Below, piece after piece: positions 8,003-38,267 of a stretch of 64,000 bases of DNA (positions are counted from its first letter, which is position 1; every line of letters starts with the position of its first letter). This DNA is from Sphaerochaeta pleomorpha str. Grapes (lineage in GTDB: Bacteria; Spirochaetota; Spirochaetia; Sphaerochaetales; Sphaerochaetaceae): the NCBI RefSeq assembly GCF_000236685.1, contig NC_016633.1:1612001-1676000 (forward strand). The letters are read 5' to 3'. Made by a program: the position numbers and the translations under genes. Below the pieces are notes generated by a model. It searched no databases and had not been told where the DNA came from. It was given only the letters and a program-made list of their open reading frames with translations.

Positions 8003-9130
8003 TTACTTTGTATTAATTTGTTGCCGGACAGTTCTCGCGACCTGTTCCAGCCTATGTATTGCATAGGGGAAGAACTGTTGCATCGAAGTGCAATATCTAT
8101 AGGCCCCTTCATTACGGTACCGTTTACATCCTCCCCTGCAAAGCTTTTCCCACTGGCAGGTGCTACAAGCAAGGCTCTTGTTGGGAGAAGACTCAATGAA
8201 CTGAAGCTCTTTTCTCTTAGCATCGAGATCAGTGATTGAGGAGGAAAGGATATTGCCCAGACAATAATCATCTACACAGAAGAAATCACAAGGATAGATG
8301 CTTCCGTCGCTTTCCGCTACATATTGCACAGAGCAGATGCCCGTCATATCACAGCTTTCCGGTTGAAACCCTACAAGCATGGAGACAAGGTTGTCAAAAA
8401 ACCGTACCGACACTCCTTTTCCACCTGCAAGATTCTCATACCAGAGGTCGAAGAGTTGCATCAGAAACTTTGCATAGGAATCAGGAGAGAGGGAAAAAGA
8501 AGTTCCCCCCGGTTCTTCACCGAAAGGGTCCATGCAGGGAATATATTGCAAAAAAGGCAAACCATGTCCACTGAGATAATTCCACATAGGCCTGACGTTC
8601 TCTGCCATGGCAGGGGTCACCACTGAAAGGATGTTGAAGTCGACGCACTGTTCTTTTAAAAGGGAAATGGACTGTAGCACCTTTTGGGCAGTTCCCTCGC
8701 CTTTGGAATCCTTACGGTACAGATTGTGAAGTCGGGCATTGCCATCAAAGGAAACCCCGACAAGAAATCCGTTCTCCTTGAAGAATTCTGCCCAGGGGAG
8801 GTCTAGCGTGAGAGCATTCGTCTGGAAAGCATAGTTCACTATGCTGTGGGAGGTTTCATTCAACCGATTGACGGTTTCTACGAATCGCTTGAAAAAAGGA
8901 AGGCCGATCAACGAAGGTTCCCCACCCTGGAACATGAACGAACAACGCTCAGCCTCGCTCAGGCATTTTTCGATAAGCGATGCCATAACCTCATCGGACA
9001 TAAACCCATGGAAGGGAATGTCGCGTTTCAATGCCAGGTCCTGGTAAAAGCAATAGGAACAAGCCAAATTGCAGGCAGACGAAGAAGGCTTGATCATCAT
9101 GACTATCTGTTGCCTGGATTTTTTTACCAA
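8003..9130 (-). CDS. Radical SAM sulfatase-maturating enzyme (anSME)
   Basis: Oxidises the active-site Cys (or Ser) of sulfatases to formylglycine without oxygen. The radical SAM cluster motif CNLACSYC (Cys20, Cys24, Cys27 from the proposed start) follows the IKPSSSACN lead-in typical of anSMEs; FMFQGGEPSLIG and QTNALTLD are family-typical. The C-terminal Cys-rich SPASM region (CDMTGICSVQ, YPCDFFCVDDYCLGN, CSTCQWEKLCRGGC) binds two further clusters. I place the start at TTG 9130 because GGGAG lies eight bases upstream; a longer frame from TTG 9172 has no such site. Both sulfatases in the window are Cys-type, the substrate expected for this enzyme. Confidence 0.9.
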   Translation of the reverse strand: MVKKSRQQIVMMIKPSSSACNLACSYCFYQDLALKRDIPFHGFMSDEVMASLIEKCLSEAERCSFMFQGGEPSLIGLPFFKRFVETVNRLNETSHSIVNYAFQTNALTLDLPWAEFFKENGFLVGVSFDGNARLHNLYRKDSKGEGTAQKVLQSISLLKEQCVDFNILSVVTPAMAENVRPMWNYLSGHGLPFLQYIPCMDPFGEEPGGTSFSLSPDSYAKFLMQLFDLWYENLAGGKGVSVRFFDNLVSMLVGFQPESCDMTGICSVQYVAESDGSIYPCDFFCVDDYCLGNILSSSITDLDAKRKELQFIESSPNKSLACSTCQWEKLCRGGCKRYRNEGAYRYCTSMQQFFPYAIHRLEQVARTVRQQINTK

Positions 9131-9210
9131 CTGAATAACTCCCTCTCCTTCGGATATCCACAACCATAGCAAAAAAGAAATATTAGTACAAACGGGGGAG
9201 ACCGGAAAAA

Positions 9211-10335: not shown

Positions 10336-11691
10336 CTAGGATAGAATTCGGGGGTGCTTGTGTTCAACATTTGCTATCCATTGTAACAAATGCTCGCGCA
10401 ACTCTTTTTTCTGTTTTGTATAGGTACTCTCATCGACTAGGTTTATTATCTGGTAGGGGTCTTTCTTCAGGTCATAGAGAAAGTCATCCACATATTCATC
10501 ACTGTCGATGTATTTTCCACCATCCTTATGCGGGGCACAGACCGCGTAGGTGAAAAAAGGGGTCCTTATGCAACGGCCTACCCTGCTTTCGGAAATCTGG
10601 GCAAACACTTCGTTGACCCTAGTATCATCGGTTCCCTCAACCACGTCAAGGAGATTTTCCCCGAACATCGCAGAGCCTATATCTATGCCTGCGATTGAGA
10701 GGATCGTCTTGGGAAGACAGGCCGTACTGACAAGATCGTCTACAACCTTACCTCCATGATAAGCACCTCCGCGAATGACCAGAGGCACGTGCAAAGCCGA
10801 ATCATGACAAGTCCGTTTGTAATCGTCGAATCCTTCGAGATGGGAATCCCTGTTCCTTGTCCTGAAATGGGACCCATGGTCGGAAGAATAGATAATGACC
10901 GTATTCTCATAGATACCCTGCTTTTTGAGAACCTCGAGAATCCTCCCAAGATTGTAGTCAACCCGTTCACAGGCACCGAGATAGTCGGGATACTCATCCA
11001 GATAATCGCCCTCGAAGGGAGCAAGGTCACCAGGGACCTCGAAATTCTTGAACCGTTGCCTGGATCCCAAAGGTCCTTGATAGTGTTTGCTGTCATTCTG
11101 GTGATGCGGCTCAATATGGGAGACTGTCAAGAAGAAAGGTTTTTCGCTTTGTCGTTTCTGCAGAAAATCGAGGGCAAAGTCTGTAATGCAATCTGCGCGA
11201 TACCCCTCGAATTCCACCTTGTGCATATGCTCATCAAACACATAGCCGCCATAGCCATTAGAGGTGAATTCCAACACATCGGAAACCCTCCAGTACCCAT
11301 TGTAACCACCTCTCCGTTCCAGAGGGACGGCCGAATGCTGGTAGTCAATGGCCGGTTGCTCCTCCAAATTGCCCTGGGAGGCAAGGTGCCATTTCCCCAC
11401 ATAGGCATTTTCATACCCTGCCTCCTGCATATAATTGGCAACGGTCTTTACATCCAACGGCAAGGCAATATTGTTACGAAAGCATCCTGTCTCAGTTGGA
11501 TAAAGGCCAGTCTGGAACAAGGCCCGACAAGGCCCACAGACTGGTTGGGCCGTGAAAGCCTTGTCAAAACGGACCCCTTCCTCTGCAAGCTTATCTACAT
11601 TTGGGGTTATTGCCAGCTTTTGTCCATAACACCCACAGGTATCGGCACGCTGCTGGTCAGAAAAATAAAAAATAATATTAGGCTTGTTCAT
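10336..11691 (-). CDS. Cys-type sulfatase, cytoplasmic
   Basis: Hydrolyses a sulfate ester using a formylglycine made from Cys52 in the motif C-G-P-C-R (C52-x-P54-x-R56), followed by the TGLYPTETG sulfatase signature. 451 residues. The metal-site Asp is in FYFSDQQRAD near the N-terminus, and the second metal segment is SSDHGSHF. I chose the ATG at 11691 because GGAG lies six bases upstream and the protein then starts as sulfatases do (MNKPNIIFYFSDQQ). No signal peptide, so it acts inside the cell on an imported substrate. It overlaps the end of tctA by 14 nt and is followed by the regulator and then by the maturase. Substrate not deducible. Confidence 0.92.
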   Translation of the reverse strand: MNKPNIIFYFSDQQRADTCGCYGQKLAITPNVDKLAEEGVRFDKAFTAQPVCGPCRALFQTGLYPTETGCFRNNIALPLDVKTVANYMQEAGYENAYVGKWHLASQGNLEEQPAIDYQHSAVPLERRGGYNGYWRVSDVLEFTSNGYGGYVFDEHMHKVEFEGYRADCITDFALDFLQKRQSEKPFFLTVSHIEPHHQNDSKHYQGPLGSRQRFKNFEVPGDLAPFEGDYLDEYPDYLGACERVDYNLGRILEVLKKQGIYENTVIIYSSDHGSHFRTRNRDSHLEGFDDYKRTCHDSALHVPLVIRGGAYHGGKVVDDLVSTACLPKTILSIAGIDIGSAMFGENLLDVVEGTDDTRVNEVFAQISESRVGRCIRTPFFTYAVCAPHKDGGKYIDSDEYVDDFLYDLKKDPYQIINLVDESTYTKQKKELREHLLQWIANVEHKHPRILS

Positions 11692-13183
11692 GAATCGCTC
11701 CATTCTTTGTTTCTTTGATCTTTCCCCAGATGATGAGAATCAGGGCAAGGGCAATCAGGGTTAAAAATGCAATACTAATAGGAGACTGGGCAAAAATACC
11801 CCAGTTGCCATCGGACAAAAGCAAAGAGCGTCTGAAATTCTCCTCGGTAATTGCACCGAGGACCAAGCCAAGCAGGACGGGAATCGTCGAATAGTTCAAC
11901 TTGTTAAGGACATAGGCTATCACTGCGAAAACCAAGGTCACATAGACATCAAACATCGAGGCTTTGACGGAATAGGCTCCGGCAAAACAGAAAATAACGA
12001 TGATCGGGGTCAAAATCGAAATCGGTATCGAAATTATACGGGCAAACAACCTGGTAAGGAGTCTTCCCTGTAAAAACATGAAAATATTGACAAACACCAA
12101 CCCGATCATGATGGCATACATGATTGCCCCATGGTCGACAAACAACTTGGGTCCCGGGGTAAGCCCGTTGATCATCAAAGCCCCAAGCATGATGGCTACA
12201 GAGCCATCACCAGGAATCCCTAGAGTCAACAAAGGAATGAGGGTTGCACCGGTGACTGCATTGTTCGCAGTCTCTGCAGCCGCTATGCCCTCGATTGAAC
12301 CGTTGCCGAATTCCTCGGGATGCTTGCTCATCCTTTTTGCACGGTCATAACTGACAAAGGAAGCCATTGAGGCACCTGTTCCCGGAATGATCCCGATAAT
12401 TATGCCAATGAGTGCAGAAAGCAAGGCAGGAGGAGTCATCCGCTTATAATCTTTTAAAGTTATCTTGTTCTCCTCGCTCTTCATGCTCGACATCGAGGGG
12501 CTACGAACCTGGTTGCTCCGTTTGCTTTTTCCCAGCACCTCGCTCAAGGCAAACAGACCGATGAGACAAATAACCAGATCAAAACCGGAATACAGGTTGA
12601 TATTCTTGAAAATAAAGCGTGTATCACTGGTCATTGGATCAAGGCCAATCGTGGCAATGAACAGGCCGAAGGCCCCGGAAGTAATACCCGCGATAAGCGA
12701 TTTTCCCGAAACCCCGGCTATTATCGTCAACCCGAAGGCACATACGAGGAAGTATTCAGGCGTTCCCATCTTCTGCGCAAACTTGCTTACCTGGGGAGCA
12801 AAGAACAGCAGGACAATTGCGCTGAGAATTCCTCCGAAGGTGGATGCCTGCAAGGCAATATTCAAGGCCTTCTTGGCCTGGCCTTTCTGTGTTAGTGGAT
12901 ATCCATCGAGCATAGTCGCCGTTGCATGGGGGGTTCCCGGAGTTCTGATCAGGATGGCCGAGATTGAACCTCCATAACTTCCCGCACAATAAATGCCAAG
13001 AAGGAACATGAAGGACTGGATAGGATCCATCGTGTACGTAAAAGGAAGAAATAGCACAATACAAAGTATCACCGTGAGTCCAGGAATCGCCCCGAACACC
13101 ATCCCAAGCAGCAACCCGATATTCATCAGAACAAAGCTCGAGAGCTGGAACATCTGTTTGAAACCTTCAATAAATATGTCCAT
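11678..13183 (-). CDS. tctA: Tripartite tricarboxylate transporter large permease, TctA family
   Basis: 501-residue, very hydrophobic large subunit of a TTT importer, which couples uptake of small organic anions to an ion gradient with an extracytoplasmic binding protein. Family-typical segments are GAIPGLTVILCIVLFLPFTY near the N-terminus, SILIRTPGTPHATATMLDGYPL-like residues from about 75, and PGTGASMASFVSYDRAKR in the second half, the repeat signature of TctA. About 11-12 membrane segments. SD AGGAAG precedes the start. Lies between tctB and the sulfatase, overlapping the latter. The ligand is probably a sulfated organic acid (inference from the operon). Confidence 0.93.
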   Translation of the reverse strand: MDIFIEGFKQMFQLSSFVLMNIGLLLGMVFGAIPGLTVILCIVLFLPFTYTMDPIQSFMFLLGIYCAGSYGGSISAILIRTPGTPHATATMLDGYPLTQKGQAKKALNIALQASTFGGILSAIVLLFFAPQVSKFAQKMGTPEYFLVCAFGLTIIAGVSGKSLIAGITSGAFGLFIATIGLDPMTSDTRFIFKNINLYSGFDLVICLIGLFALSEVLGKSKRSNQVRSPSMSSMKSEENKITLKDYKRMTPPALLSALIGIIIGIIPGTGASMASFVSYDRAKRMSKHPEEFGNGSIEGIAAAETANNAVTGATLIPLLTLGIPGDGSVAIMLGALMINGLTPGPKLFVDHGAIMYAIMIGLVFVNIFMFLQGRLLTRLFARIISIPISILTPIIVIFCFAGAYSVKASMFDVYVTLVFAVIAYVLNKLNYSTIPVLLGLVLGAITEENFRRSLLLSDGNWGIFAQSPISIAFLTLIALALILIIWGKIKETKNGAIHEQA

Positions 13184-13194
13184 CTTAATACTTC

Positions 13195-13719
13195 CTAGGG
13201 CAACCGGACGTTCAGTACGAACCGGAAGATAATGCCAATCGCTATGGCAGAGGCAACGACGATAGTGTAATATTTCCAGTTTTTTACCCTGAAGTAATAG
13301 AGCATCAGAATGGAATAGATTACGGAACCAGCAATAAAACCGATTGTCTTCATCATTAAGGCATACAGCATGAGAAGGAACAACAGGATCAAAGCCTTGA
13401 GTTCGGTTAGCAACTCAAGCTCAAGTTTCTCGACGGGAATTTTCCTGATAAGCTTAACTCCATCTTTTATCAAAAGAACCGATGAACTGCCCAAAATAAG
13501 ATAGGTTAAAATAGAAGGAAAGGTTCTGGCATTGATCGACATATTTGGCTGGATTTTTATCTGGCCAGGCATCAAAGCCAGTACTACGACAGAGAAAACA
13601 ATAAAGACAATAGGTCCGACTATTGTAGGATAGAATCGAATTTTCCTGTCCTTGATACGTTCGGCAGTTGCATCGATTTTATGGTCCAACTTTTTTATAA
13701 ATTCGATTACGGTACTCAT
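13195..13719 (-). CDS. tctB: Tripartite tricarboxylate transporter small permease, TctB family
   Basis: 174-residue small membrane subunit of the TTT system, with four hydrophobic segments (about 35-55, 70-90, 100-125 and 145-170 from the chosen start). TctB proteins are poorly conserved; identification rests on size, topology and the place between tctC and tctA. The ATG at 13719 follows AAAGGTGG closely; an upstream TTG at 13737 in frame is less likely. The stop is 11 nt before tctA. Confidence 0.85.
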   Translation of the reverse strand: MSTVIEFIKKLDHKIDATAERIKDRKIRFYPTIVGPIVFIVFSVVVLALMPGQIKIQPNMSINARTFPSILTYLILGSSSVLLIKDGVKLIRKIPVEKLELELLTELKALILLFLLMLYALMMKTIGFIAGSVIYSILMLYYFRVKNWKYYTIVVASAIAIGIIFRFVLNVRLP

Positions 13720-14871: not shown

Positions 14872-15223
14872 CTTACTAAGTATTGGTCCCAGTGAAAATA
14901 AACTGTGACAGGGTAAGACAAAGAAAACAATGATAGAAAAAACAGGAAAACGACAAGCACTTCCTTGCCTATTCACGCCTCTGTTCCCTTTGTTTTTTCC
15001 CACACAGGGAAAATTAGTACAACCATTATGCAAAATATTGAATAGCTGCCTTTATCTAAAGTGTTTTAGGTTAATCAAGAAATCAGGATCTCATCTTCGG
15101 TACATTTTGCGCACAGCTAATTTTTACCGTTCAAAGAAGAGAAATATTCCCTTTTCGCTTATCCTTGGGAAGCAGGACCGAAGCATACAGTACCCACGAT
15201 ACCAGATTGCCAGTCCCACCCTG
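14872..15223. other. Intergenic stretch without recognisable gene
   Basis: Lies between the stop of the LacI-family gene and the tctC regulatory region. No credible coding frame on either strand. One weak inverted repeat (TTCCCT/AGGGAA, about 14990-15010, with a T-rich loop) was seen; no convincing terminator for the LacI gene was found. Confidence 0.5.
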
Positions 15224-16243
15224 CTAAAGGCTTTCCCGTTTGATAAGTTCAGCAGTAAGGCTGATGTGTAGCTCATCCTTGTCCAAATTCTGGTGAGAGA
15301 GCATTTTGTCCAGCAGATGCTTCGCCGCTTCACCGATTTCGCCTCGATTTATATCAAGGGACGAGAGAGACGGTTGTACATAATTACACAAATCGGAGTT
15401 GTTGACTCCAATCACCGAACAGTCTGCAGGCAAGTCATAACCCCTCTGCTGTAAAATATGCATCGCAGGGATTGCTTCCGAATCGGTTCTTCCAAAAATC
15501 CCATCGATACGAAAGCCGCTATCCAGCAAGCACCCGATTGTTTCCTCAAGCTCAATTTTGTCATGGTACCCCTGAATGATACGATAGGAATCGATGCCTG
15601 CAACCTTCAGCTCATCAGTAAATCCATGGTAACGAAAATCTTCCTCGAGGATAAACTCATTGTTTTCCACGAAACGGCTATGCACATAAACAAGGTTTTT
15701 TCTTCCCTTTTCAAGCAAAGTCCGGGTACAAAGCCTCGCACCTTCGTACAGACCAGAATTTATAAGGGCAAACTCCCCATGGAGTTTGCTATAGTTACGC
15801 ATCTCCAACAAAACAACAGGAATGTCTGTATCAATGAGTTGCTGTATGTACTTCTGCCGGAAGGTACCTGAAGCGATGATGACCGCATCAAAGTACCTTT
15901 GGTAAATCTGGCTGACAAACTCATCGCTGTTCTGGCTTTCGCATAGGGAAATGAAACTTCCCTTCTCATATGCCCAAGAATCCATCTTCTTGATAATCTT
16001 GGCAAAGTGACTGCTCAATAGGTCATCAACAATAAAAAGGATATGGTTGCTTTGCTTGCCTTTCAGGGCACGTGCAAACGAATTTGGACGATAGCCCAAT
16101 TCCTTGATAGCAGCGAGCACCCGTTTCTTCTTTACGGTATCAACATAACGGTTATCGTTTATCACATAGGATACGATAGTGGGGGTTACCCCTGCCAGCT
16201 CGGCTACATCCTTTCTGGTAACCCGTTTGATATCGTCACTCAT
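15224..16243 (-). CDS. LacI-family transcriptional regulator (second sulfatase operon)
   Basis: 339 residues: N-terminal helix-turn-helix with the LacI signature (VTRKDVAELAGVTPTIVSYVIN, then LGYRPNSFARALK hinge) followed by a sugar-binding effector domain. It starts inside the end of the sulfatase gene (4-nt ATGA overlap), so it is the last gene of that operon and most likely its own repressor. A good operator candidate is the 18-bp palindrome at 20970-20987 in front of the first gene. Ligand not deducible; probably the sulfated or desulfated sugar. Confidence 0.92.
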   Translation of the reverse strand: MSDDIKRVTRKDVAELAGVTPTIVSYVINDNRYVDTVKKKRVLAAIKELGYRPNSFARALKGKQSNHILFIVDDLLSSHFAKIIKKMDSWAYEKGSFISLCESQNSDEFVSQIYQRYFDAVIIASGTFRQKYIQQLIDTDIPVVLLEMRNYSKLHGEFALINSGLYEGARLCTRTLLEKGRKNLVYVHSRFVENNEFILEEDFRYHGFTDELKVAGIDSYRIIQGYHDKIELEETIGCLLDSGFRIDGIFGRTDSEAIPAMHILQQRGYDLPADCSVIGVNNSDLCNYVQPSLSSLDINRGEIGEAAKHLLDKMLSHQNLDKDELHISLTAELIKRESL

Positions 16244-17778
16244 ATTGTTCCCACCACATTGCTTGCTTTCTTTTTTTGCCGGACATTTTCTGAAATCTCA
16301 CTACCTGTATCATAATCCAGTTGTTTGAGCTCACCGGGAGCGCTTGGACGCTGTCGCGTATATCCATCACATTCCCAATCAGGGGTGACTTCTTTCTTAT
16401 TCCAAGGCCTGCATTTCCATTGGTACCCACGATAGGGGTCACGGGTATCGTTCATCCATTGTAATATTTCTCGATGCAACTCATCTCTGACCTGTTTGTA
16501 CGATTCTTCATCGATGAGGTTCTTCATCTCGTATGGGTCCTGTTTTACATCATACAGTTCATCAGTATCATCAAGAAGGTGTATTGCCATTTTATAGTCA
16601 TCGGTAATGGCAGCCCTCATGAACTGTAAGCCTCCAAAACCATCGTGGTCGATCTCATACCGGTGAAATTCACTGAATACCGTCTGGTGCAGGGGTTTTC
16701 CAAAGGGATTCTCTATAATCGCCCGCATCGACACCCCGCTTAATACCGGTGGCTGGGGAATCTGAAAATAATCAAGAAACGTTGGAACCAGGTCGATATG
16801 GGTTGCTACATGCGCATAATTGGTACCCGCAGGGCTCAGCGCATAAGCTCCTCCCTTGATAATGAGGGGAATATGGGAAATCTCCTCGTAGACTGACGGA
16901 CCCTTAAGCGAGAGGGAATGGGCTCCAAGGGCTTCCCCATGGTCACTGGTAAAGACCACCATGGCGTCTGGCAGTTTCTCCTTCACGGCATCCAATACCC
17001 TGCCGATCTCATAGTCTGCAAAGCTGTTACAGCCTAAAAACAGCTGGGGTTTTATATGGAGACTGTCTTTGTCTTCCTGCAAATGAGTCCCAGCCCAAAG
17101 TCTCTGCAACAAGGGTTTACCTTCAAGGGTATCCCAATAGTTGGGACGCTTTGGAAACTCATAATCAGCATAGAGATCAGCAAACCGTTTAGGACAAAGG
17201 TAGGGCTGATGGGGTTCGTCATAGCTGACACAGAGGAACAGATCCTCACTGCTATGCTTATCGATATAATCGATAGCACGGTCAGAGACCCTATGGGCAA
17301 AAGTAAATTCCTCTTCAATTCCGGATCCTTCCAATGAGGCGTTTTCCTGTCTGCTTTTGTACCGGTCTTGTGCATCCAGTTCATTGAGATAGCAACGCAT
17401 ATCATACCAATAGTCGCTGTCATACCCCTGTGGGCAAATACCATTGCCAAAATAGTCCCCGCCATCGAGGTGCCACTTACCGATATAAGCACTAGAGATT
17501 CCCTCAGGTTTCAGGTATTCACCGATAGTTTTAACCCCACTTGCGAGGGGAACGGTATTGGTTATACCCCCATTGGAATGGGGATAGAGGCCAGTAAAGA
17601 TAGCACTCCTGGCCGGTTCACATACCGGTTGGGTGGAATAAACCTTGTCAAAACGAATTCCTTCCGACGCAAGCCGGTCTATGTTCGGTGTTTTCATATC
17701 GGGATACCCGTAACAACCGACCATATCCCAGCGGGTAGTATCGGTCATAATGAAAACAACTTGTCTTTTCGGTTTCAT
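16240..17778 (-). CDS. Cys-type sulfatase, cytoplasmic (second)
   Basis: 512-residue sulfatase with formylglycine precursor Cys53 in C-E-P-A-R (C53-x-P55-x-R57), followed by TGLYPHSNG. Metal ligand Asp in FIMTDTTRWD near the N-terminus and FTSDHGEALG later. No signal peptide (starts MKPKRQVVFIMTD), so it acts in the cytoplasm. AAGGAG lies nine bases upstream of the ATG. It follows the permease genes by 52 nt and overlaps the LacI gene. It needs formylglycine formation, and the only maturase in the window is that of the neighbouring operon, so that enzyme probably serves both. The C-terminal RDPYRGYQWKCRPW is typical of a subset of bacterial sulfatases; substrate unknown. Confidence 0.92.
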   Translation of the reverse strand: MKPKRQVVFIMTDTTRWDMVGCYGYPDMKTPNIDRLASEGIRFDKVYSTQPVCEPARSAIFTGLYPHSNGGITNTVPLASGVKTIGEYLKPEGISSAYIGKWHLDGGDYFGNGICPQGYDSDYWYDMRCYLNELDAQDRYKSRQENASLEGSGIEEEFTFAHRVSDRAIDYIDKHSSEDLFLCVSYDEPHQPYLCPKRFADLYADYEFPKRPNYWDTLEGKPLLQRLWAGTHLQEDKDSLHIKPQLFLGCNSFADYEIGRVLDAVKEKLPDAMVVFTSDHGEALGAHSLSLKGPSVYEEISHIPLIIKGGAYALSPAGTNYAHVATHIDLVPTFLDYFQIPQPPVLSGVSMRAIIENPFGKPLHQTVFSEFHRYEIDHDGFGGLQFMRAAITDDYKMAIHLLDDTDELYDVKQDPYEMKNLIDEESYKQVRDELHREILQWMNDTRDPYRGYQWKCRPWNKKEVTPDWECDGYTRQRPSAPGELKQLDYDTGSEISENVRQKKKASNVVGTI

Positions 17779-28431: not shown

Positions 28432-29637
28432 TCACACCTTCTGCTGCAACTTTCCCAATTCTTCCAGTAACTGGGAACAGACCATATACATGCGGGGAAT
28501 ATGGAATGGGCCTTTGTACATATTACCCTTCAGGGGGGTGGAAAGCGTACCGTCGCGGTGGAAATAGCCGTACCATTCACCCAGTTCCTCATCAAGGAAG
28601 TGGTTCTTCTCATATGCATCGACTATTTTGAAATGCTCAAGGTAGGTTTCTTCCCCTGTGAGGGAATAGGCCATCAGATTTGCAATGGACGCTTCGCACT
28701 GGGGCCACCAGAATTTCATGTCATGCCAGTACTCGCTTCCACTTTTTCCCAAGGCATCTCGGAAGTAGATTATCCCGCCATACTCTTTGTCCCAGCCGAT
28801 ATCCCACATCCAATCGAGCATCGTAGTGCCAAGCTCTATAAGTTTTGGATCATTGTCCCTGTACTTTGCCTCACGCATGATAAACCAGGAACCCTCGATG
28901 GCATGCCCAGGGTTAAGCATCCTTCCTTCTATATGATCCAGTTGCAGCGTCCCGTCAGGGGCACACTGCTCAACTACCAGTTTCCTTTCAGGGCGCACAA
29001 AATACGTGGTTATTTCTTTGAGCAATCCATCGATGAATTTTGTAAGATCTTCTTTGTGCTCAGGGCAGGCCTCACGCAGTTCCTGTGCAGTGTTGAGCAG
29101 GATCATAGGGACGCCGAAACCCTTCGATGGTGCATTTTCCTGGTTGAATTTGGGTATGAGCAAGCCAGGGGTTTCCAGTGACTTCAGCACCTTCTGGAAC
29201 AAAGCATAGGCTTTATCTGCATAGTCTTTCTTGCCAAAGGCCCTGCTATATGCGGCAAACCCGATAATGGCGAAGGTCTCGCTGAAAATATAGCGAGAGC
29301 GCTTAATTACCGGCTTTCCATCCTTGGTCACCCTGAAATACATTCTTCCGTCTTGCGGATCGAAGCAATGGTCTTCGATGAAGGCAACAAGGGAATCACA
29401 GACCTCTTTAAAGGCTTCTCTCTTTTCGATTGTCAGATAGGTGGAGGCAAATACCCACAGGGCACGGCCTTGAAACCATACGGATTTATCACTCTCGAGG
29501 ATGGAACCATCCCGGTCGAGCCCAGTATACATGCCACCATGAATCGGGTCGAATCCATGTTCCATCCAAAAAGGAAGCACGTTATCGACAAGCATGTCCT
29601 TGTATTCTTTCGCTAATGAATTAAACGTTTTATCCAT
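28432..29637 (-). CDS. AGE-family epimerase (N-acylglucosamine 2-epimerase superfamily)
   Basis: 401 residues, the normal length of the (alpha/alpha)6-barrel AGE family. Conserved features: VWFQGRALWVFA, IKRSRYIFSETFAIIGFA, GRMLNPGHAIEGSWFIM with the catalytic-site His, WPQCEA, and WYGYFHRDGTLSTPLKGNMYKGPFHIPRM with the second His near the end. The ATG 29637 is preceded by AGGAGG; a TTG one codon earlier is unlikely. Members interconvert GlcNAc/ManNAc, or mannose/glucose units of free sugars or cellobiose. Beside a NanA-like lyase and a hexosamine-kinase-like gene, GlcNAc/ManNAc 2-epimerase is the best guess. Same strand as gntR and the lyase. Confidence 0.88.
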   Translation of the reverse strand: MDKTFNSLAKEYKDMLVDNVLPFWMEHGFDPIHGGMYTGLDRDGSILESDKSVWFQGRALWVFASTYLTIEKREAFKEVCDSLVAFIEDHCFDPQDGRMYFRVTKDGKPVIKRSRYIFSETFAIIGFAAYSRAFGKKDYADKAYALFQKVLKSLETPGLLIPKFNQENAPSKGFGVPMILLNTAQELREACPEHKEDLTKFIDGLLKEITTYFVRPERKLVVEQCAPDGTLQLDHIEGRMLNPGHAIEGSWFIMREAKYRDNDPKLIELGTTMLDWMWDIGWDKEYGGIIYFRDALGKSGSEYWHDMKFWWPQCEASIANLMAYSLTGEETYLEHFKIVDAYEKNHFLDEELGEWYGYFHRDGTLSTPLKGNMYKGPFHIPRMYMVCSQLLEELGKLQQKV

Positions 29638-29652
29638 CAAACAACCTCCTCA

Positions 29653-29702: not shown

Positions 29703-30440
29703 CTAGCAAACATCCATCCCAGGAACAGCTAGCCCGCTTGTTTTGAATTCTTGTATCAACATCACCTTGGTTGTCCATAAATGCTCCCTGACAGCTTTTG
29801 CTGCTCGATCAGGATCATCCTGGGATAGCTGGGCAAGCAACTCATGATGGTTTTTCAAAATTCGTTCTTTGCCAGGAGTCGAGTAGATATGATACATGCT
29901 ATAGAACGTCCCCAACCTGATCATCCGGGAAAATTCGTTGATGAGCATCTTGCTTTCAGATAATTTTACCAGGCTTTCATGGAAATCATATTCCAGATTC
30001 CAGTTCCCCTGTCCATTCACGAAAGTAGAATCGAGCATGGCAGCTTTGACCAATAAGGTTTCGTAATTATCCCTGATGGGTTTTCCGCAATAAATTCTTG
30101 CAGCCTGGCATTCCAAAGCCTCACGGACAATCAGATGCTCATAGATTTCCCGAAGCCCGAAAGGAGCCACGATAGTACCCTTACGGGGGATGGTGACAAA
30201 ATATCCTTCCAGCTCCAATTGGATTACGGCTTCAAGGACAGGCGCCACGCTAACCCCCAACTGTTTTGCAATATCCCGACGGTTAAGAACCGTACCGGGT
30301 GGCAATTCCTTGTTGATCAGCATTGCCAACAGAATTGAATACACTTCATTTGCAAGGGATTTTTTTTTCTTGCTATGATGTAGTGTTGACTCTGCAAGGC
30401 CATCACGAAGGTTCTCTACAGCTTTCTCATGAGAAATCAA
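29703..30440 (-). CDS. GntR-family (FCD) transcriptional regulator
   Basis: 245 residues: winged helix (LPPGTVLNRRDIAKQLGVSVAPVLEAVIQLELEGYF, continuing to IPRKGTIV) and a helical FCD effector domain with the acid/His metal-ligand pattern (VREALECQAARIY, DYDFHESLVKLS-type segment, HHELLAQLSQDDPDRAAKAVREHL). The start is TTG at 30440: AAGGAG lies eight bases upstream and no ATG fits. It lies between the lyase and the epimerase, so it is the likely regulator of the lyase-transporter operon, comparable to NanR, which is also GntR/FCD. A palindrome in the promoter region at 37208-37217 is a possible target. Confidence 0.88.
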   Translation of the reverse strand: MISHEKAVENLRDGLAESTLHHSKKKKSLANEVYSILLAMLINKELPPGTVLNRRDIAKQLGVSVAPVLEAVIQLELEGYFVTIPRKGTIVAPFGLREIYEHLIVREALECQAARIYCGKPIRDNYETLLVKAAMLDSTFVNGQGNWNLEYDFHESLVKLSESKMLINEFSRMIRLGTFYSMYHIYSTPGKERILKNHHELLAQLSQDDPDRAAKAVREHLWTTKVMLIQEFKTSGLAVPGMDVC

Positions 30441-30556: not shown

Positions 30557-31483
30557 CTAGAGATTTTCGAGAACCTCAACACCGGTAATATGATATCTGT
30601 CCCTGATTTCCTTCAAACCTCTTCTCAGATCTTCTTCTGCTTCAGCTGTGAGCGGAGCAAAAGGTTTTCTGGCAAATCCTGCATCATGGCCAATCCAAGA
30701 AAGCATTTTCTTCATGCTGGCAAAGAATGAATGTTCAAGGACAAAGAAAATGATTGCATCGGCACTGATCTGCAAAGACCTGGCTTTCTTGATATCATTT
30801 TCCCTTTCGGCTTGTACAATCTGAATGAAAAGTTCAGGAATTACATTGTAAAAGGAACCGATGATTCCATCTGACCCGAAAGCAAGCCCCGACATTGCCA
30901 TTTCGTCACACCCAGAATAGACCATGAAATCTTTTCCTATTTCTTCCTTGATCCGTAGTATCTCATAATGGGAGGTTGCCGTGTACTTGATACCTTTCAC
31001 ATTCTCGATCTTTGCCAGACGTTTGATCGTATTGAAATCGACCAGTCCGGCAAGGGCGATATTGTAGACAATCATAGGAAGCGGTACGCTCTCGCTTATA
31101 TCCTGGTAATAGCTCACAATCTCATCACTGGAAAACTTGAAGTAAAATGGGGGAACAGATGAAATTGCATCTGCACCCATTTTATATGCATGCCGAGCCA
31201 AATCAATCGACTTATCGGTGCCGATATCCCCTACATGGACAATGACGGGGATTTTATGTGCTACCTCGTCAATGACAACTTCAACGACTTTCTTGCGTTC
31301 ATCCGAAGACATTAGGAAGGTTTCCCCCGTGCTTCCGGTCAAATACAAGCCATCGATATTCTTTGACAAGAGAAATCTGGTAAGGTCACGCTGCCTTTTT
31401 TCATCAAATGCCCCACTCTCGTCAAAACATGTCATCATTGCTGGAATAACGCCCTTAATCCCCTGTAAATTTATACTACTCAT
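30557..31483 (-). CDS. DapA/NanA-family aldolase, probable N-acetylneuraminate lyase
   Basis: 308-residue TIM barrel of the dihydrodipicolinate synthase/sialic acid lyase family. Seen: GVIPAMMTCFDESGAFD, the carboxylate-binding GSTGE loop near residue 50, catalytic Tyr in PMIVYNI, and the Schiff-base Lys in KGIKYTATSHYEI. The Y-N-I and KYT forms fit the lyase branch better than biosynthetic DapA. Together with the AGE epimerase, a FCD GntR regulator and a dipeptide-type importer (SatABCD of Haemophilus ducreyi carries sialic acid and is of this type), cleavage of Neu5Ac to ManNAc and pyruvate is the best hypothesis. Another 2-keto-3-deoxy acid aldolase role is possible. Five nt after the ATPase gene. 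Confidence 0.82.
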   Translation of the reverse strand: MSSINLQGIKGVIPAMMTCFDESGAFDEKRQRDLTRFLLSKNIDGLYLTGSTGETFLMSSDERKKVVEVVIDEVAHKIPVIVHVGDIGTDKSIDLARHAYKMGADAISSVPPFYFKFSSDEIVSYYQDISESVPLPMIVYNIALAGLVDFNTIKRLAKIENVKGIKYTATSHYEILRIKEEIGKDFMVYSGCDEMAMSGLAFGSDGIIGSFYNVIPELFIQIVQAERENDIKKARSLQISADAIIFFVLEHSFFASMKKMLSWIGHDAGFARKPFAPLTAEAEEDLRRGLKEIRDRYHITGVEVLENL

Positions 31484-31487
31484 ATCA

Positions 31488-32513
31488 CTATTCCCCCTGC
31501 TCTATGTAATGGTTTTCTTCCATAAGGTGGCAGGATACAAAATGTATCTCTCCATCTATCTCATACGGCTTTAACTGTGGTGCCTCCGTCTTGCACCGTT
31601 CGTGACAATGCTTGCACCTAGGATGAAACGGACATCCAGAGGGAGGATTGACCGGGCTAGGGACATCTCCTTCCAACACAATACGCTTCCGTTTCGTATC
31701 AAGATCAACAACAGGAATCGCAGAGAACAAAGCTTGGGTATAAGGATGCATCGTATTTGCATACAGCCTCTTGGTAGAAGCCAGTTCTACAATCTTCCCA
31801 AGATACATCACTGCTATCCGGTCGCTGATGTACTCAACGACGCTCAAATCGTGCGTAATGAAAACATAGGTTAGGTTGCGTTCCTTTTTGAGGTCCAATA
31901 GCAAATTCAAAACCTGTGCCCTGATCGAAACATCCAGTGCGCTTACTGCTTCATCGCAGATGACCAGTTCGGGATTCACGCTTAAAGCTCTGGCAATACC
32001 GATACGTTGACGCTGGCCACCGGAAAACTCATGGGGATATCTGTCCATATATTCTGGACGCATATTAACTGCCTCAAGCAAATCTCCGATAATTTTTCGC
32101 TGCTCTTCACGTTTTCGAACACCAAACCTATTCAAAGGATCCTTGAGTGAGGTAAAAATCGTAAACGACGGGTTAAGTGAAGAATACGGATCCTGAAAGA
32201 CTATCTGCATCTTTTTCCTATATTCAGACATCTGTTTCTCATTAAGCTTGAGAATATCTGTTTGCTCTGTGCCATTTTGGAAACAAACCTCACCTTCTTT
32301 GGCATGAACCAGCTTCAATAATGTTTTCCCCAGTGTAGATTTCCCACACCCAGATTCTCCCACCAACCCAAGGGTTTCTCCCTTATAAATATCGAGGGTA
32401 ACCCCATCAACGGCTTTTACATGCCCGACAACACGTTTAAAAACCCCTTTTTTGACAGGAAACCAAGTCTTTACATCACGGACACTCAATAAGACTTCTT
32501 TTTCTTCAGGCAT
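31488..32513 (-). CDS. Dipeptide-type ABC transporter ATPase, DppF/OppF-like
   Basis: 341-residue ATPase. Walker A GESGCGKST, signature FSGGQRQRIGIARAL, Walker B LVICDEAVSALD, and the C-terminal oligopeptide-transporter extension (PSPVNPPSGCPFHPRC, with a Cys cluster that in this family can hold an Fe-S cluster). SD GAGGAGG. Overlaps the partner ATPase gene by 8 nt. Pairs with the next ATPase to drive the permeases encoded upstream. Confidence 0.94.
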   Translation of the reverse strand: MPEEKEVLLSVRDVKTWFPVKKGVFKRVVGHVKAVDGVTLDIYKGETLGLVGESGCGKSTLGKTLLKLVHAKEGEVCFQNGTEQTDILKLNEKQMSEYRKKMQIVFQDPYSSLNPSFTIFTSLKDPLNRFGVRKREEQRKIIGDLLEAVNMRPEYMDRYPHEFSGGQRQRIGIARALSVNPELVICDEAVSALDVSIRAQVLNLLLDLKKERNLTYVFITHDLSVVEYISDRIAVMYLGKIVELASTKRLYANTMHPYTQALFSAIPVVDLDTKRKRIVLEGDVPSPVNPPSGCPFHPRCKHCHERCKTEAPQLKPYEIDGEIHFVSCHLMEENHYIEQGE

Positions 32514-33519
32514 GGTTTACCTCCTCCTCGTATTTCCAGCAACGAACCGAATGGGATTCGGAGATTTTCGTCTCGTTTGGCATACAGGAATCACATACAC
32601 CTCGCTTAAAGAAATCACATCGGGGAGCAAACTGACACCCTGGCGGCCTGTCATAGGGATCAGGGGTAACCCCCCTGATCGGTTGCAGATCCTGGTCCCG
32701 GCCCCGGCCAAGGACAGGGATTGAACGTAGGAGCGCAACCGTGTACGGATGACTGGGCCGTTTGAAAACATCTTCAAGGGTCCCTTGTTCGACAACGTTA
32801 CCCATATACATGACCACAACATCATCGGCAAGTTCAGAGACAACCCCCATATCGTGGGTTATCAACATGATTGCTGTATTTCGCTCGGTCTTGAGCTTCA
32901 TGATGAGATCAAAAACCTGGGCTTGGATGGTCACATCAAGGGCTGTTGTCGGTTCATCGGCAATGAGTACCTTTGGATTGCAGGACATGGCCATGGCAAT
33001 CATGGAACGCTGCCTCATTCCTCCCGAGAATTGGTGGGGATATTCCCCTGCCCGTTGCTCGGGAAGAGGAATTCCCATATCGCGAAGCAAGTCGACTGAC
33101 CGCTGCTTTCTCTGTTTCCGATTGAGCTTTGTATGATACAGAAGATTCTCACCGATCTGGTACCCAATGGTATAGACAGGATTGAGGCTTGTCATAGGAT
33201 CTTGGAATACCATGGCAAAATCAGAACCACGCAATGAGCGCATGACTTTGCCATTCCGTTTCTGCTGATCAATTCTAATTTCTTTTCCATTATTAAAATA
33301 GGAAATTTCACTTCCCTTCTCAATTCTTGATAATTCAGGAAGCAACTGCATAATCGAGGAAGCAGTCACACTTTTCCCACACCCAGACTCGCCTACTACA
33401 CAGAGGGTCTTTCCCCTTTTGATATCGAAGGAAACGCCGTTTACGGCCTTGTTGCATCGTCCATTCTGATAGAAAAAGGTCTGGAGGTTTTTCACCCGTA
33501 CCAATACGTCATCTTCCAT
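32506..33519 (-). CDS. Dipeptide-type ABC transporter ATPase, DppD/OppD-like
   Basis: 337 residues from the ATG 33519, which has AGGAGG five bases upstream; the open frame further upstream overlaps the permease gene and is not coding. Walker A GESGCGKSV, signature FSGGMRQRSMIAMAM, Walker B VLIADEPTTALD, then the C-terminal PDPYDRPPGCQFAPRC extension typical of OppD/DppD. The ATPase couples to DppB/C-like permeases. Confidence 0.94.
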   Translation of the reverse strand: MEDDVLVRVKNLQTFFYQNGRCNKAVNGVSFDIKRGKTLCVVGESGCGKSVTASSIMQLLPELSRIEKGSEISYFNNGKEIRIDQQKRNGKVMRSLRGSDFAMVFQDPMTSLNPVYTIGYQIGENLLYHTKLNRKQRKQRSVDLLRDMGIPLPEQRAGEYPHQFSGGMRQRSMIAMAMSCNPKVLIADEPTTALDVTIQAQVFDLIMKLKTERNTAIMLITHDMGVVSELADDVVVMYMGNVVEQGTLEDVFKRPSHPYTVALLRSIPVLGRGRDQDLQPIRGVTPDPYDRPPGCQFAPRCDFFKRGVCDSCMPNETKISESHSVRCWKYEEEVNHA

Positions 33520-33529
33520 TGTTTCCTCC

Positions 33530-34459
33530 TCAACCTTGTTGCGAGGGATCCGAGGCATCCCTGAGCCCATCGCCGATGAAGTTGATACCCAACACAAACA
33601 GCGAGATAACGACACCTACAGGAAGCCAGAGCCACCAATAGGACTGGAGAACCGTCAAGTCATTTGCAGCATTGAGGATATTCCCCCAGGTTGCGATTTG
33701 AAGGGGAACTCCAAGGCCAAGAAAACTCAAGGCAGCCTCCTGCAAGATGAACATGGCAGTAGTTAGGGTGATATTGACCATAATAGGACCTAGGGCATTG
33801 GGCAACATATGCTTGTAACAGATGATAAGAGGGTGTATCCCAAACGCTTTCAAAGCCTGGATGTACTCTTCTTCCCTGATGGAAAGCATCTTTGCACGGG
33901 TCATGCGGTAGAGACTTCCCCAACCGGTAACGATGAAGATAAAAATCAGGTTGCGTATGCTCTGCCCTACTATCGACACCAATAGTAAAACCAGGATTAT
34001 CTGGGGGAACGACATGAAAATCTCAGAAATTCTCATAAAAACTTTGTCGATCAACCCACCTCTATAGCCGCCATAGGCTCCAAGCAAAACACCGATGAAA
34101 GCTGCTCCCAGCGCACTTCCAAAACCCACAAGGATGGAAATACGTCCTCCAAATAAAACACGGGAAAACACATCCCTTCCCAGTTTATCGGTACCAAACA
34201 GGTGTTCGAAAGAGGGATGCTGCAAAACTGCTTTCAAATTAATGGATAAGGGATCGAAACGGGTCAGCAAAGGTGCAAATATCGAGCAGAATACGATAAC
34301 CAGAAAGATTGCAAGGCCCACGACCGAAAGCCGGTTATGGAGTAGTTTCTGCATCCCACGACTTCCTTTCCTTATCCGGTAGGTCTGGTTTTCCTCGGCA
34401 TGCCGAATTCTATCCATCGTCCTGTCAAGTTTTCTCTGGTGATTAAATACAACGTACAT
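33530..34459 (-). CDS. Dipeptide-type ABC transporter permease, DppC-like
   Basis: 309 residues. An N-terminal charged stretch precedes the first membrane helix (LSVVGLAIFLVIVFCSIFAPLL), as usual for DppC/OppC. FGTDKLGRDVFSRVLFGGRIS is the family signature; the ATPase-docking loop is YIQALKAFGIHPLIICYKHMLPN. The ATG 34459 with AGGAGA four bases upstream is the real start; a 56-codon extension in frame is spurious. Eight nt from the DppB-like gene. Confidence 0.93.
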   Translation of the reverse strand: MYVVFNHQRKLDRTMDRIRHAEENQTYRIRKGSRGMQKLLHNRLSVVGLAIFLVIVFCSIFAPLLTRFDPLSINLKAVLQHPSFEHLFGTDKLGRDVFSRVLFGGRISILVGFGSALGAAFIGVLLGAYGGYRGGLIDKVFMRISEIFMSFPQIILVLLLVSIVGQSIRNLIFIFIVTGWGSLYRMTRAKMLSIREEEYIQALKAFGIHPLIICYKHMLPNALGPIMVNITLTTAMFILQEAALSFLGLGVPLQIATWGNILNAANDLTVLQSYWWLWLPVGVVISLFVLGINFIGDGLRDASDPSQQG

Positions 34460-34467
34460 ATTCTCTC

Positions 34468-35427
34468 CTAATCCAACTGGACCCTGGGGTCCAACGCTGC
34501 AGTGAGCAGATCTATGATGAAACTGGCAATAAGCACCGCAAAAACAGAAAATAGGGCAATCATCATTACCAACGGATAATTCTGGCTTCTCACTGCACCT
34601 AAGAATTCGTTGCCAACCCCTGGCCATTGGAAAATCTGTTCAATGACCACAGATCCCCCGATGAGCATGGGAAGACGGAACCCGATCAGTACGACAACAG
34701 GAGTCAAGGCAACGCGAAAACCATGGACAAGGTTTATTCTCCACTCAGGCAAGCCTTTGCTACGGGCCGTCTTGATATAGTCTTTGTTAATAGTATCAAG
34801 CATACTGCTACGCGTATAACGCATTACCCCAGCAGTCATGGTTACCCCCAATACGAGCGCAGGTAACAATAGATTCTTCATATGGTCCCAGTAAACGGTA
34901 TATTCAGGCCGCAATCTGCCACCAATAGGCAACCAACCCAGGTCGATGGCAAACACAAGAAGGGCTACCAGTCCCAGAAAGAATTCAGGGATAGAGACAC
35001 CCACCATACCGGCGACGGTAAAAACCCGGTCGATAGGCCGGTCTTTGCGAACAGCGCTGACCAGTCCAAGGATGGTCCCAAGCAAAGTTGAGATACACAA
35101 AGCTGCCAAAGATAATTCCAGGGTAGCAGGAATCCTGTTCAGTACTATGTCCTTGATCGGAACGCCGCTAGTCAGGCTATACCCAAAATCACCATGCAAG
35201 ACTCCTCCGATCCAGTGGAAGTAACGAATGATGAACGGATCATTCAGCCCCAAGGAGTCACGAAGGGCTGAAAGCTGAGCCTGGGAGATATTTGCCATGG
35301 CTTCAGGACCGGCCATAAAGGAGACCGCATCCCCAGGGGTCAGTTCCATGCCTAGGAAAATAAGAAACGTCATAATAAGAAGCATCGGGATAAGGGTAAG
35401 GAATCTACGAATTGTATAGGAAAACAT
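34468..35427 (-). CDS. Dipeptide-type ABC transporter permease, DppB-like
   Basis: 319 residues, about six hydrophobic segments. N-terminus MFSYTIRRFLTLIPMLLIM and the DSLGLNDPFIIRYFHWIGGVLHGDFGYS segment are family-typical; docking loop YIKTARSKGLPEWRINLVHGFR. The ATG 35427 has AAGGA close upstream; an extension to 35505 in frame is not needed. Confidence 0.93.
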   Translation of the reverse strand: MFSYTIRRFLTLIPMLLIMTFLIFLGMELTPGDAVSFMAGPEAMANISQAQLSALRDSLGLNDPFIIRYFHWIGGVLHGDFGYSLTSGVPIKDIVLNRIPATLELSLAALCISTLLGTILGLVSAVRKDRPIDRVFTVAGMVGVSIPEFFLGLVALLVFAIDLGWLPIGGRLRPEYTVYWDHMKNLLLPALVLGVTMTAGVMRYTRSSMLDTINKDYIKTARSKGLPEWRINLVHGFRVALTPVVVLIGFRLPMLIGGSVVIEQIFQWPGVGNEFLGAVRSQNYPLVMMIALFSVFAVLIASFIIDLLTAALDPRVQLD

Positions 35428-35494: not shown

Positions 35495-35519
35495 GACAAT
35501 ACCAATTAGTATGCAGTGA

Positions 35520-37184
35520 TCACGGTTTAGGGAACTTGTTTACGAAGAACAGACGGGTGTAACGGATATCAACAGGAGTCACCTTTACATTAGGCATCTG
35601 CTCAAGGGCAAGGACATCCTGGACGCTCTTGGTATAGGCATAATCCAATTGTCCGGCTGCTGCATTCTTTACGAGGTTAGGATCACTCTCTCCGCTAGGA
35701 TACATCTGAATCTCATCAATCTTTGCCTTGCCTTTATAATACTTAGCAAAAGGCACAAAGGTTGCGTAGTTATTCATCTGGATTTCCTTGACCATGTACG
35801 GACCGGAACCAACAGGATTCTGCCAGAAGGAAGCTTGCTGGAACTGCAATGGATCGACATTTGCAAAATACTTTTTAGGAAGCGGCGGGAACTGGGTGAA
35901 ACAAAGGAGTGCATTGGGGTCTGCAACACTATAGGTAAAGGTTACGTTGCGGCCATCGGTGGTAATTCCCGTTATCTCAGTTGCGCTGCCATTAACGAAA
36001 GCATCGTACCCTTGCAGGTGTTTGAGCATGGAAGAGAATACTGCATTGAGGGCAGGAACCTTTGAAGCAAACTCATACGTCCATTTGACATCAGAAGCAG
36101 TAATCGGTTCACCGTCATGCCAGAAAATATCATCGCGCAATACAAAAGTGATGGTTTTTCCGTCCGGGCTCACAGTGTAACTTTCAGCAAGCTCACCCTT
36201 AGAAGGGGTCAAACTGGTATCGGCAACCACAAGATGATCGAATAAGACTTTCTGGCTCATGTATAGACCAGGATTGAGAAATGGTGTCTCAACAAATTGG
36301 ACAGGGCCGCCATTGGTCTTTAATACCTTTTTGCCGTTTGCATCTGCGGGGACAGTCCAGTTGATAATATTCCAGTCATAGTTGAACTGCTCATTGCCAT
36401 AACCGGCACCTGCACGGTCGAGTCGAGTGCTCTGGGCTACAAATACCTGCTGGTAATACAAGGGGATTGCAGGAAGGTTATCATTCTCATACTTCTGTAC
36501 CGCCTTGAAAGCCGCCTTCTGGGAAGCAACATCAACAACATGGGTCGCATCTATCAATTTGTCATAGGTTGGGTCTGAAGGGGTATGGGAATTGCTTCCG
36601 CCACCGGTAATAAACCGATCGTAATATTCGTTCATTGACAGGGCACCGATTGCAGCATAGGCAAGATCCCATTTAACTGCCGATGGTCCATTTACGGGGT
36701 CTGTTGGGGGAACCCAGAGCTGGGAACCAAGGTCGCCTTCCAGTTTCCTGAATGTCATCTTGATGCCAACATCACCGAGGTACGCCTGAACCGCAGTCAT
36801 GAGGTCGACCGTCATCTGATCCCCATAATAGTAGACTACATCGAGAGTCTGATTTGAGTCCCATCCAGCTTCCTTGAGCAATTGTTTGGCTTTGGTGGGG
36901 TTATAGGCATAGTCGTTCAACCCTGCTACCTTCCAATCTCCATTGGGGGTCAAGCTGTTTGCTACGACTGCCTTGCCATCCATCAGGCTATCGACAATTG
37001 CTTTCATGTCGATCGCATAGGCAATTGCCTGTCTAACACGTACATCAGCCAGGGGAACTCCCCCCTTGGGTGTGGCAACCATATCGGTTTCGGTTGTCGT
37101 TACCGGTGTTTCTTTTGCCCCGCCTGCAAACACGCAGGAGAGCGATACTAGTATCACGAGCACAGTCACTAAGAATTTCTTCAT
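35520..37184 (-). CDS. Family 5 (DppA-type) substrate-binding protein with circularly permuted domain order
   Basis: 554 residues. Signal peptide MKKFLVTVLVILVSLSCVFA then GGAKETP; no lipobox. The order of the mature protein is reversed relative to DppA/OppA. Residues of about 40-278 are what normally forms the C-terminal half: PLADVRVRQAIAYAID (44-59), AYNPTKAKQLLKEAG (93-107), PAIPLYYQQ (238-246). Residues of about 283-554 are what is normally N-terminal: LAESYTVSPDGKTITF (332-347), FWHDGEPITASDVKW (354-368), NPVGSGPYMVKE (456-467). The protein ends at RLFFVNKFPKP, the exact point that in relatives continues into PLADVRVRQ. One frame, no stop, normal ribosome site: an intact circular permutation rather than a broken gene. 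Likely ligand: sialic acid or a peptide. Confidence 0.9.
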   Translation of the reverse strand: MKKFLVTVLVILVSLSCVFAGGAKETPVTTTETDMVATPKGGVPLADVRVRQAIAYAIDMKAIVDSLMDGKAVVANSLTPNGDWKVAGLNDYAYNPTKAKQLLKEAGWDSNQTLDVVYYYGDQMTVDLMTAVQAYLGDVGIKMTFRKLEGDLGSQLWVPPTDPVNGPSAVKWDLAYAAIGALSMNEYYDRFITGGGSNSHTPSDPTYDKLIDATHVVDVASQKAAFKAVQKYENDNLPAIPLYYQQVFVAQSTRLDRAGAGYGNEQFNYDWNIINWTVPADANGKKVLKTNGGPVQFVETPFLNPGLYMSQKVLFDHLVVADTSLTPSKGELAESYTVSPDGKTITFVLRDDIFWHDGEPITASDVKWTYEFASKVPALNAVFSSMLKHLQGYDAFVNGSATEITGITTDGRNVTFTYSVADPNALLCFTQFPPLPKKYFANVDPLQFQQASFWQNPVGSGPYMVKEIQMNNYATFVPFAKYYKGKAKIDEIQMYPSGESDPNLVKNAAAGQLDYAYTKSVQDVLALEQMPNVKVTPVDIRYTRLFFVNKFPKP

Positions 37185-37529: not shown

Positions 37530-38267
37530 ATGTACACCAAAGAGAATTTGCTTGAAAACTTGCGACAGCTGGGCATCAACCCAAAAGGGACCATTCTGGT
37601 CCATGCCTCCTATAAGAGCATCGGGGAAGTGGAAAACGGCGCTGATACCGTCATCGAAGCCCTTATCGACTATATGCATGAAGGACTATTGGTATTCCCT
37701 TCCCATACCTGGGCAACCGTAGACGCAAACAACCCAGTCTATTCGGTAAACGAATCTCCTGCCTGCATCGGTATCATCCCGGAATTGGCAAGAAAGAAGC
37801 CAGGTGGTTTCCGCTCCGGCCATCCCACCCATTCGGTAGTGGCCTTTGGCAAGGATGCAAAAACCTTTGTCCAGGACGATGAACACTTCGACACCCCGTG
37901 TGCCCGAGCCTCTGCCTGGGGAAAACTGCTCGACCGCGATGCCACAATCCTGTTAGTGGGGGTTGGCTTGAACCGCGACACCTTTATCCATGGAATTGAA
38001 GAATGGCTCGACCTGCCCGAACGGCTGACCAAAGAAAAAGAAATGCTTACCAGCATACTCGCTGATGGAACAGCAGTAACGGTCCCTTCAAGAAGGCATA
38101 TCGGGCACCCCTCGGAAAACTTCCCGAAAGTACAGGATTACCTTTTTGAAAAGCATATTCTCCATAACGGAACTTTTGGTGATGCAAAGGTACTCTACCA
38201 CAGCACGCAAGAACTGTATGATGCTCTGGAGCCACTACTTGAGAAGAACCCAGCCCTATTTTCCTAG
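37530..38267 (+). CDS. AAC(3)-family N-acetyltransferase
   Basis: 245 residues of the aminoglycoside 3-N-acetyltransferase superfamily, which transfers acetyl from acetyl-CoA to an amino group. Conserved: ILVHASYKSIGEVENGADTVIEAL (start of the CoA site), LVFPSHTW, FRSGHPTHSVVAFGKDA, and ILLVGVGLNRDTFIHGIEE. Chromosomal members (YokD-like, FrbF-like) are often not resistance enzymes, and the neighbouring sugar genes suggest an amino sugar or other metabolite as acceptor. The 3' end overlaps the convergent kinase gene by 12 nt. A real role in resistance cannot be excluded. Confidence 0.85.
   Translation: MYTKENLLENLRQLGINPKGTILVHASYKSIGEVENGADTVIEALIDYMHEGLLVFPSHTWATVDANNPVYSVNESPACIGIIPELARKKPGGFRSGHPTHSVVAFGKDAKTFVQDDEHFDTPCARASAWGKLLDRDATILLVGVGLNRDTFIHGIEEWLDLPERLTKEKEMLTSILADGTAVTVPSRRHIGHPSENFPKVQDYLFEKHILHNGTFGDAKVLYHSTQELYDALEPLLEKNPALFS

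Follow-up and report, generated by a model that had tools for sequence, protein, structure and literature searches.

A naturally occurring circular permutation in a family 5 solute-binding protein of an ABC importer operon from Sphaerochaeta pleomorpha

We analysed a stretch of 64,000 nucleotides from the genome of Sphaerochaeta pleomorpha str. Grapes (hereafter the window) and found that a gene on its minus strand (35520..37184) encodes a circularly permuted family 5 solute-binding protein (SBP5). The gene is a single frame of 554 amino acids without an internal stop. Its best explanation, which we hold to be very likely, is a functional, naturally permuted SBP5 of an ABC importer, with sialic acid or a close nonulosonate as the likeliest ligand.

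All parts of the protein are encoded on the minus strand. The chain starts with a signal peptide of about 22 residues (MKKFLVTVLVILVSLSCVFA^GGAKE, cleavage site included; 37119..37184), assigned by eye from a typical MKK followed by a hydrophobic stretch; positions 1-27 of our SBP5 HMM (see below) match residues 1-27 weakly. It is followed by the native C-terminal half (residues 44-278; 36351..37055), delimited by profile matches, PDB-sequence matches and the structure model. A linker of approximately residues 279-288 (36321..36350), placed by alignment A1 and a pairwise alignment with an unpermuted orthologue, connects the two native termini. The linker had been predicted near residues 278-295, which is correct within a few positions. 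The native N-terminal half comes last (residues 289-554; 35523..36320; profile matches, pairwise alignment and model) and ends in NKFPKP, the native loop that precedes PLxDVRVRQ.

The swapped order was seen in the profile matches. The match to PF00496 (SBP_bac_5), 232.6 bits against a cut-off of 32.4, is split in two: profile positions 208-327 come first (approximately 36732-37067 of the window) and positions 4-208 second (approximately 35538-36197). The match covers both halves and exceeds the curated cut-off, but the native order is violated, and the protein is therefore a permuted variant and not an ordinary member of PF00496. An independent HMM, made from 35 ordinary SBP5 proteins, gave 122 bits for residues 35-255, which match hmm 279-497, and 177 bits for residues 312-550, which match hmm 61-284. 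When the protein was put into native order in silico, the same HMM found a single domain of 312 bits. The PDB sequences of DppA, NikA and CtaP also matched in swapped order. Thus, as the original prediction had proposed, the native second half follows the signal peptide and the native first half closes the chain, and each half, matched separately to DppA/OppA-type proteins, finds the expected part. The protein shares with DppA, OppA and NikA the conserved blocks of both halves, a putative signal peptide and an operon with DppBCDF-type permeases and ATPases. It differs from them in its swapped halves, in termini that lie past the first lobe crossover and in native ends that are joined by a linker.

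In a single clostridial order, 12 of 226 genomes have an unpermuted orthologue, with 51-64% identity in each half and an operon of the same type (SBP-B-C-D-F-NanA lyase). Aligned in native order with one of them (L080:8320-9990), the window protein is identical at 286 of 505 positions (57%), and the main feature of the alignment is a gap of five residues at the cut. The C-terminal RLFFVNKFPKP aligns to RLLYVNKFNKKDGTK in the unpermuted orthologue, where SPLSDVRVRQ comes next; ..YVNKF[NKKDGTK]SPLSDVRVRQ.. in the orthologue thus stands against ..FVNKFPKP at the C-terminus and ..PLADVRVRQ near the N-terminus of the permuted chain. The new termini are therefore near neighbours in the unpermuted orthologue, with about five loop residues absent, so that the predicted direct junction of RLFFVNKFPKP with PLADVRVRQ in relatives proved nearly right. 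In some permuted proteins a putative remnant of this loop stands ahead of the PLAD motif (GKTSPMAD in L038, GKVSPLAD in L039). The native C-terminus (..NWTLK) and the native mature N-terminus are joined via approximately ten residues. Swapped segments, joined native termini and new termini that are adjacent in the parent together meet the criteria for a circular permutation. Apart from its native order, the clostridial protein of L080 differs in having a lipobox-like signal (SLIGC) and genes for NanE and a ROK kinase downstream.

A fusion in swapped order of halves from two different binding proteins could likewise leave the PF00496 match in two separate stretches. However, the two halves are 53% and 60% identical to the same unpermuted relatives (L078 and L080), and the alignment in native order is almost gapless. 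Given these concordant identities, we rejected such a chimera as very improbable.

Furthermore, we searched related genomes and genome contigs for homologues with the same order of halves, as had been suggested, and found 22 genes, two of them nearly identical. In all of them the cut lies at, or a few positions from, hmm 284|285, and their products are full-length and collinear with the window protein at 45-84% identity. The hosts are relatives of Sphaerochaeta and further spirochaetes, Treponema lecithinolyticum being one; the other genes come from Clostridia (Christensenellaceae), Alphaproteobacteria (Rhodobacteraceae and Afifellaceae) and an Oceanospirillaceae MAG (Gammaproteobacteria). Misassembly of two copies had been named as a possible refutation. 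No evidence was found for such an artefact, be it of assembly or of sequencing and produced by tandem copies: the window sits in one contig of 3.59 Mb, the genome has no second copy near the identity of the window protein, and independent assemblies of isolates and MAGs from several phyla share this order and cut. Since 22 genes share the order, chance and misassembly are excluded for the family, and for the window gene itself we put an artefact at next to nothing. The case for a natural permutation of a DppA/OppA-type protein thus rests on the order of the halves, the models of the pieces (below), the 22 genes and the unpermuted orthologues.

The dN/dS values between close permuted pairs are low (0.03 for L082/L083 and 0.19 for L042/L044), which indicates that the permuted protein is under purifying selection for function. 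It also speaks against a decaying, non-functional relic, as do the intact frames of the homologues, the conserved operon and the more than 100 invariant positions of alignment A1. We saw no evidence in favour of decay and rejected a pseudogene as hardly conceivable.

The occurrence of the permuted protein is patchy. Four of 393 spirochaete genomes have it, and so do four of the 391 genomes that belong to the same order as G441; among 391 genomes from the class that includes G437, the protein is limited to G437 itself (permuted) and G1082 (unpermuted). This suggests horizontal transfer or frequent loss. A plasmid search with the window protein gave no match at E 1e-40.

An AlphaFold2 model of the whole chain, built with 11 homologues, was of moderate quality (mean pLDDT 74, pTM 0.69). 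Residues 256-545 of the model align with positions 1-273 of the chains of OppA/DppA/NikA-type proteins and of SatA, with Z of about 19-22. Foldseek and VIA matched only one half of the whole model, as expected from order-dependent aligners, and the N-terminal piece was therefore folded and searched separately. Folded alone, residues 40-288 reached a pLDDT of 59; positions 2-209 of this model align to DppA 272-479 (Z 14.7), and the piece matches the corresponding part of many other SBP5 chains too. In the models, then, both pieces carry the parent SBP5 fold, with the reservation that the whole-chain model is moderate and that the pieces were aligned separately. The second lobe of DppA spans approximately residues 261-478. 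Going by this layout, the cut lies just past the first lobe crossover, so one hinge crossing would end at the free C-terminus; we infer that only the other remains covalently continuous.

Downstream of the SBP gene, and likewise on the minus strand, lie genes for permease B of the DppB/OppB family (34468..35427; the ORF possibly starts at 35505), permease C of the DppC/OppC family (33530..34450; start uncertain, ORF to 34627) and the ATPases of the DppD/OppD (32506..33558; start uncertain, ORF to 33615) and DppF/OppF families (31488..32513). They are followed by a lyase of the N-acetylneuraminate lyase (NanA)/DHDPS family (30557..31483; PF00701, 248.8 bits; NF003164, 265 bits, narrowly missing the cut-off of 281), a GntR/FCD transcriptional regulator (29703..30440) and an N-acylglucosamine 2-epimerase (AGE) family protein (28432..29640; PF07221, 154 bits; NF052547, 331 bits, under the cut-off of 600). 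The operon order in the window is thus SBP-B-C-D-F-NanA-type lyase-GntR-AGE. Across loci, permuted and unpermuted alike, B-C-D-F follow the SBP gene, and a NanA-family lyase lies within or adjoins nearly every locus with enough flank.

NanA, NanE, a ROK kinase, an AGE-type epimerase and a NanR-like regulator make up the usual sialic acid pathway. In our loci, AGE is present in the window, L068 and L070, all three of them spirochaete loci; in L080 there is a ROK kinase together with an epimerase of the NanE type, which at 297.9 bits clears its cut-off of 189. L042 has a NanR-like regulator as well as a NanA that passes one of its NCBIfam cut-offs. An ABC importer for sialic acid, SatABCD, has been described, and its SBP resembles peptide-binding proteins most closely (PMC10017367). 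SatABCD (ST3), with SatA of Haemophilus ducreyi (PDB 5Z99, 5YYB), resembles the window system in its family 5 type SBP, its ABC importer and its sialic acid type gene context, and structure searches with the C-terminal piece of the window protein also matched SatA (5z99, Z 19.4). In contrast to the window protein, SatA has the native order, and its sequence match (5yyb) is weak, at about 1e-7 for the window protein and 1e-11 for the unpermuted orthologue, with other SBPs scoring higher. On the strength of the NanA-type lyase, AGE, NanE and sugar kinase context and the SatABCD precedent, we propose that the system imports sialic acid or a closely related compound. We regard this as probable; it is inferred from gene context, without binding or transport data.

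The substrate may, however, vary between loci. In G029, the stretch after the permuted-SBP operon (L063:14587-18605) holds a divergent NanA-family lyase (NF003164, 182 bits) together with glycyl radical enzyme-like and activase-like genes, recognised by eye, which hint at a different substrate there. In Rhodobacteraceae-type genomes, sulfatase genes flank the permuted-SBP operons (L045:2653-4071 and 11456-13476, confirmed with Pfam; L081:5295-6716 and 15104-16531, by eye), and sulfated sugars may therefore be involved in loci of this type. Lyases of the NanA/DHDPS superfamily act on several keto acids, and both NanA and AGE of the window stay below their NCBIfam equivalog cut-offs. Moreover, neighbouring clusters in the window deal with other sugars, and SatA is not the PDB sequence closest to the permuted protein. 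The permuted receptor could thus be real while its ligand is another 2-keto-3-deoxy sugar acid, a sulfated sugar or a peptide. The AGE-type epimerases, the regulator and lyase of L042 and the NanE and kinase of L080 speak against such a ligand, which we see as somewhat unlikely but to be kept in mind.

With sialic acid or a close nonulosonate as the preferred ligand, the system might work as follows. The chain is opened in a long surface loop just after the first lobe-to-lobe crossover (..YVNKF.K | SPL.DVRVRQ), and about ten residues join the native termini, both of which are located in one lobe. The signal peptide ahead of the native second half is inferred to direct export, after which the protein should fold into an ordinary two-lobed receptor. 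A ligand presumably bound in the cleft would be delivered to the adjacent permeases B and C, with transport putatively driven by the ATPases D and F. Inside the pathway suggested by the gene context, it would be split by the NanA-type lyase and processed by the AGE-type epimerase.

Several other genes were observed in and around these loci. A protein of 535-568 amino acids without any Pfam or NCBIfam match adjoins the NanA gene in L042 (2490-4196) and L044 (742-2349). Downstream of both permuted and unpermuted operons, an FAD-dependent oxidoreductase recurs near the NanA-type lyase; two cases rest on a match to FAD_binding_2 (L041, L046) and two were recognised by eye (L040, L080). On the plus strand of the window, positions 37530-38267 hold a divergent gene for a protein of the aminoglycoside 3-N-acetyltransferase family (PF02522); it scores far under the NCBIfam cut-offs for resistance genes and probably does not confer resistance. 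Elsewhere in the window (8003-9172, 10336-11703 and 16240-17778), near carbohydrate transporters, lie genes for two sulfatases, recognised with Pfam, and for a radical SAM protein that by eye resembles a sulfatase maturase.

Tandem duplication followed by trimming is the textbook route to a circular permutation. The original prediction, that the outer halves of a duplicated gene were lost and the signal peptide was kept or regained, fits the anatomy of the protein, but it is inferred, and no intermediate of this route was seen. In the rooted SBP tree, the 12 unpermuted proteins are nested inside the permuted ones, which would mean a reversal or a repeated origin: either the permutation predates the whole subfamily and the Clostridia went back to the native order, or the same cut has arisen repeatedly. 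Constraining the SBP tree to a single permuted clade costs 7.95 log-likelihood units, but the AU test does not reject this clade (p 0.054). On the other hand, the outgroups are very distant and carry a long-branch warning, and a tree of the concatenated operon proteins B-C-D-F did not reject a single permuted clade (AU test, p 0.29). The direction is therefore left open. We consider a reversal or repeated origin unlikely on present evidence, and the choice between a single origin and a later reversal remains unresolved. We looked for a closer native-order outgroup among plasmids and across the order that includes G437, but nothing came nearer than L061 (36% over the native N-terminal half). 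The loop VNKFNKKDGTKSPL of the unpermuted proteins was considered as a scar of reversion and dropped, since a long loop occupies this place in the distant native-order L061 too.

A second SBP5, L022 (L107:2456-4105, in G051), is also circularly permuted: hmm 368-501 comes ahead of hmm 31-358, which puts the cut at hmm 358|368. By its HMM order it had been a candidate member of the window's permuted set; it was removed, since it fell among the tree outgroups and its cut differs. The same order is shared by proteins of G1538 (L111) and G1539 (L110) at 82-83% identity, and a full-length collinear match of 75% was found in G340 (L112), so that this type is present in four spirochaete genomes. Like the window gene, L022 lies in G051 upstream of DppB-, DppC- and DppD-like genes; unlike it, it has another cut site, and its product is only about 27% identical to the window protein. 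The L022-type permutation is apparently independent of that in the window family, and at least two independent permutations of the SBP5 fold have apparently occurred among the spirochaete genomes examined. The original prediction had named neither this second type nor the broad occurrence of the first, nor a sialic acid type ligand.

Open-access full texts yielded only engineered sensors and unrelated work, and no account of a natural permutation in family 5. A natural permutation thus appears to be undescribed for family 5 binding proteins, and the earlier statement that no natural case is known holds as far as the open-access literature goes, which is not proof. Profile-based annotation shows the permuted SBPs as two fragments of one family, which masks the permutation.

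Permutation in binding-protein biosensors is normally engineered, and the permuted forms described here are natural templates for such sensors. Permuted and unpermuted orthologues that serve matching transporters in several phyla form a natural experiment, which bears on whether a Venus-flytrap receptor needs two continuous hinge strands, on how docking to the permeases copes with new termini and on how permutations become fixed. With at least two cuts, and with clostridial orthologues that may be a return to the native order, permutation of SBP5 could be both recurrent and reversible, an idea that we put forward only as a speculation and currently doubt. If true, it would mean that an ABC receptor can drop one covalent hinge crossing and regain the same one while transport is kept.
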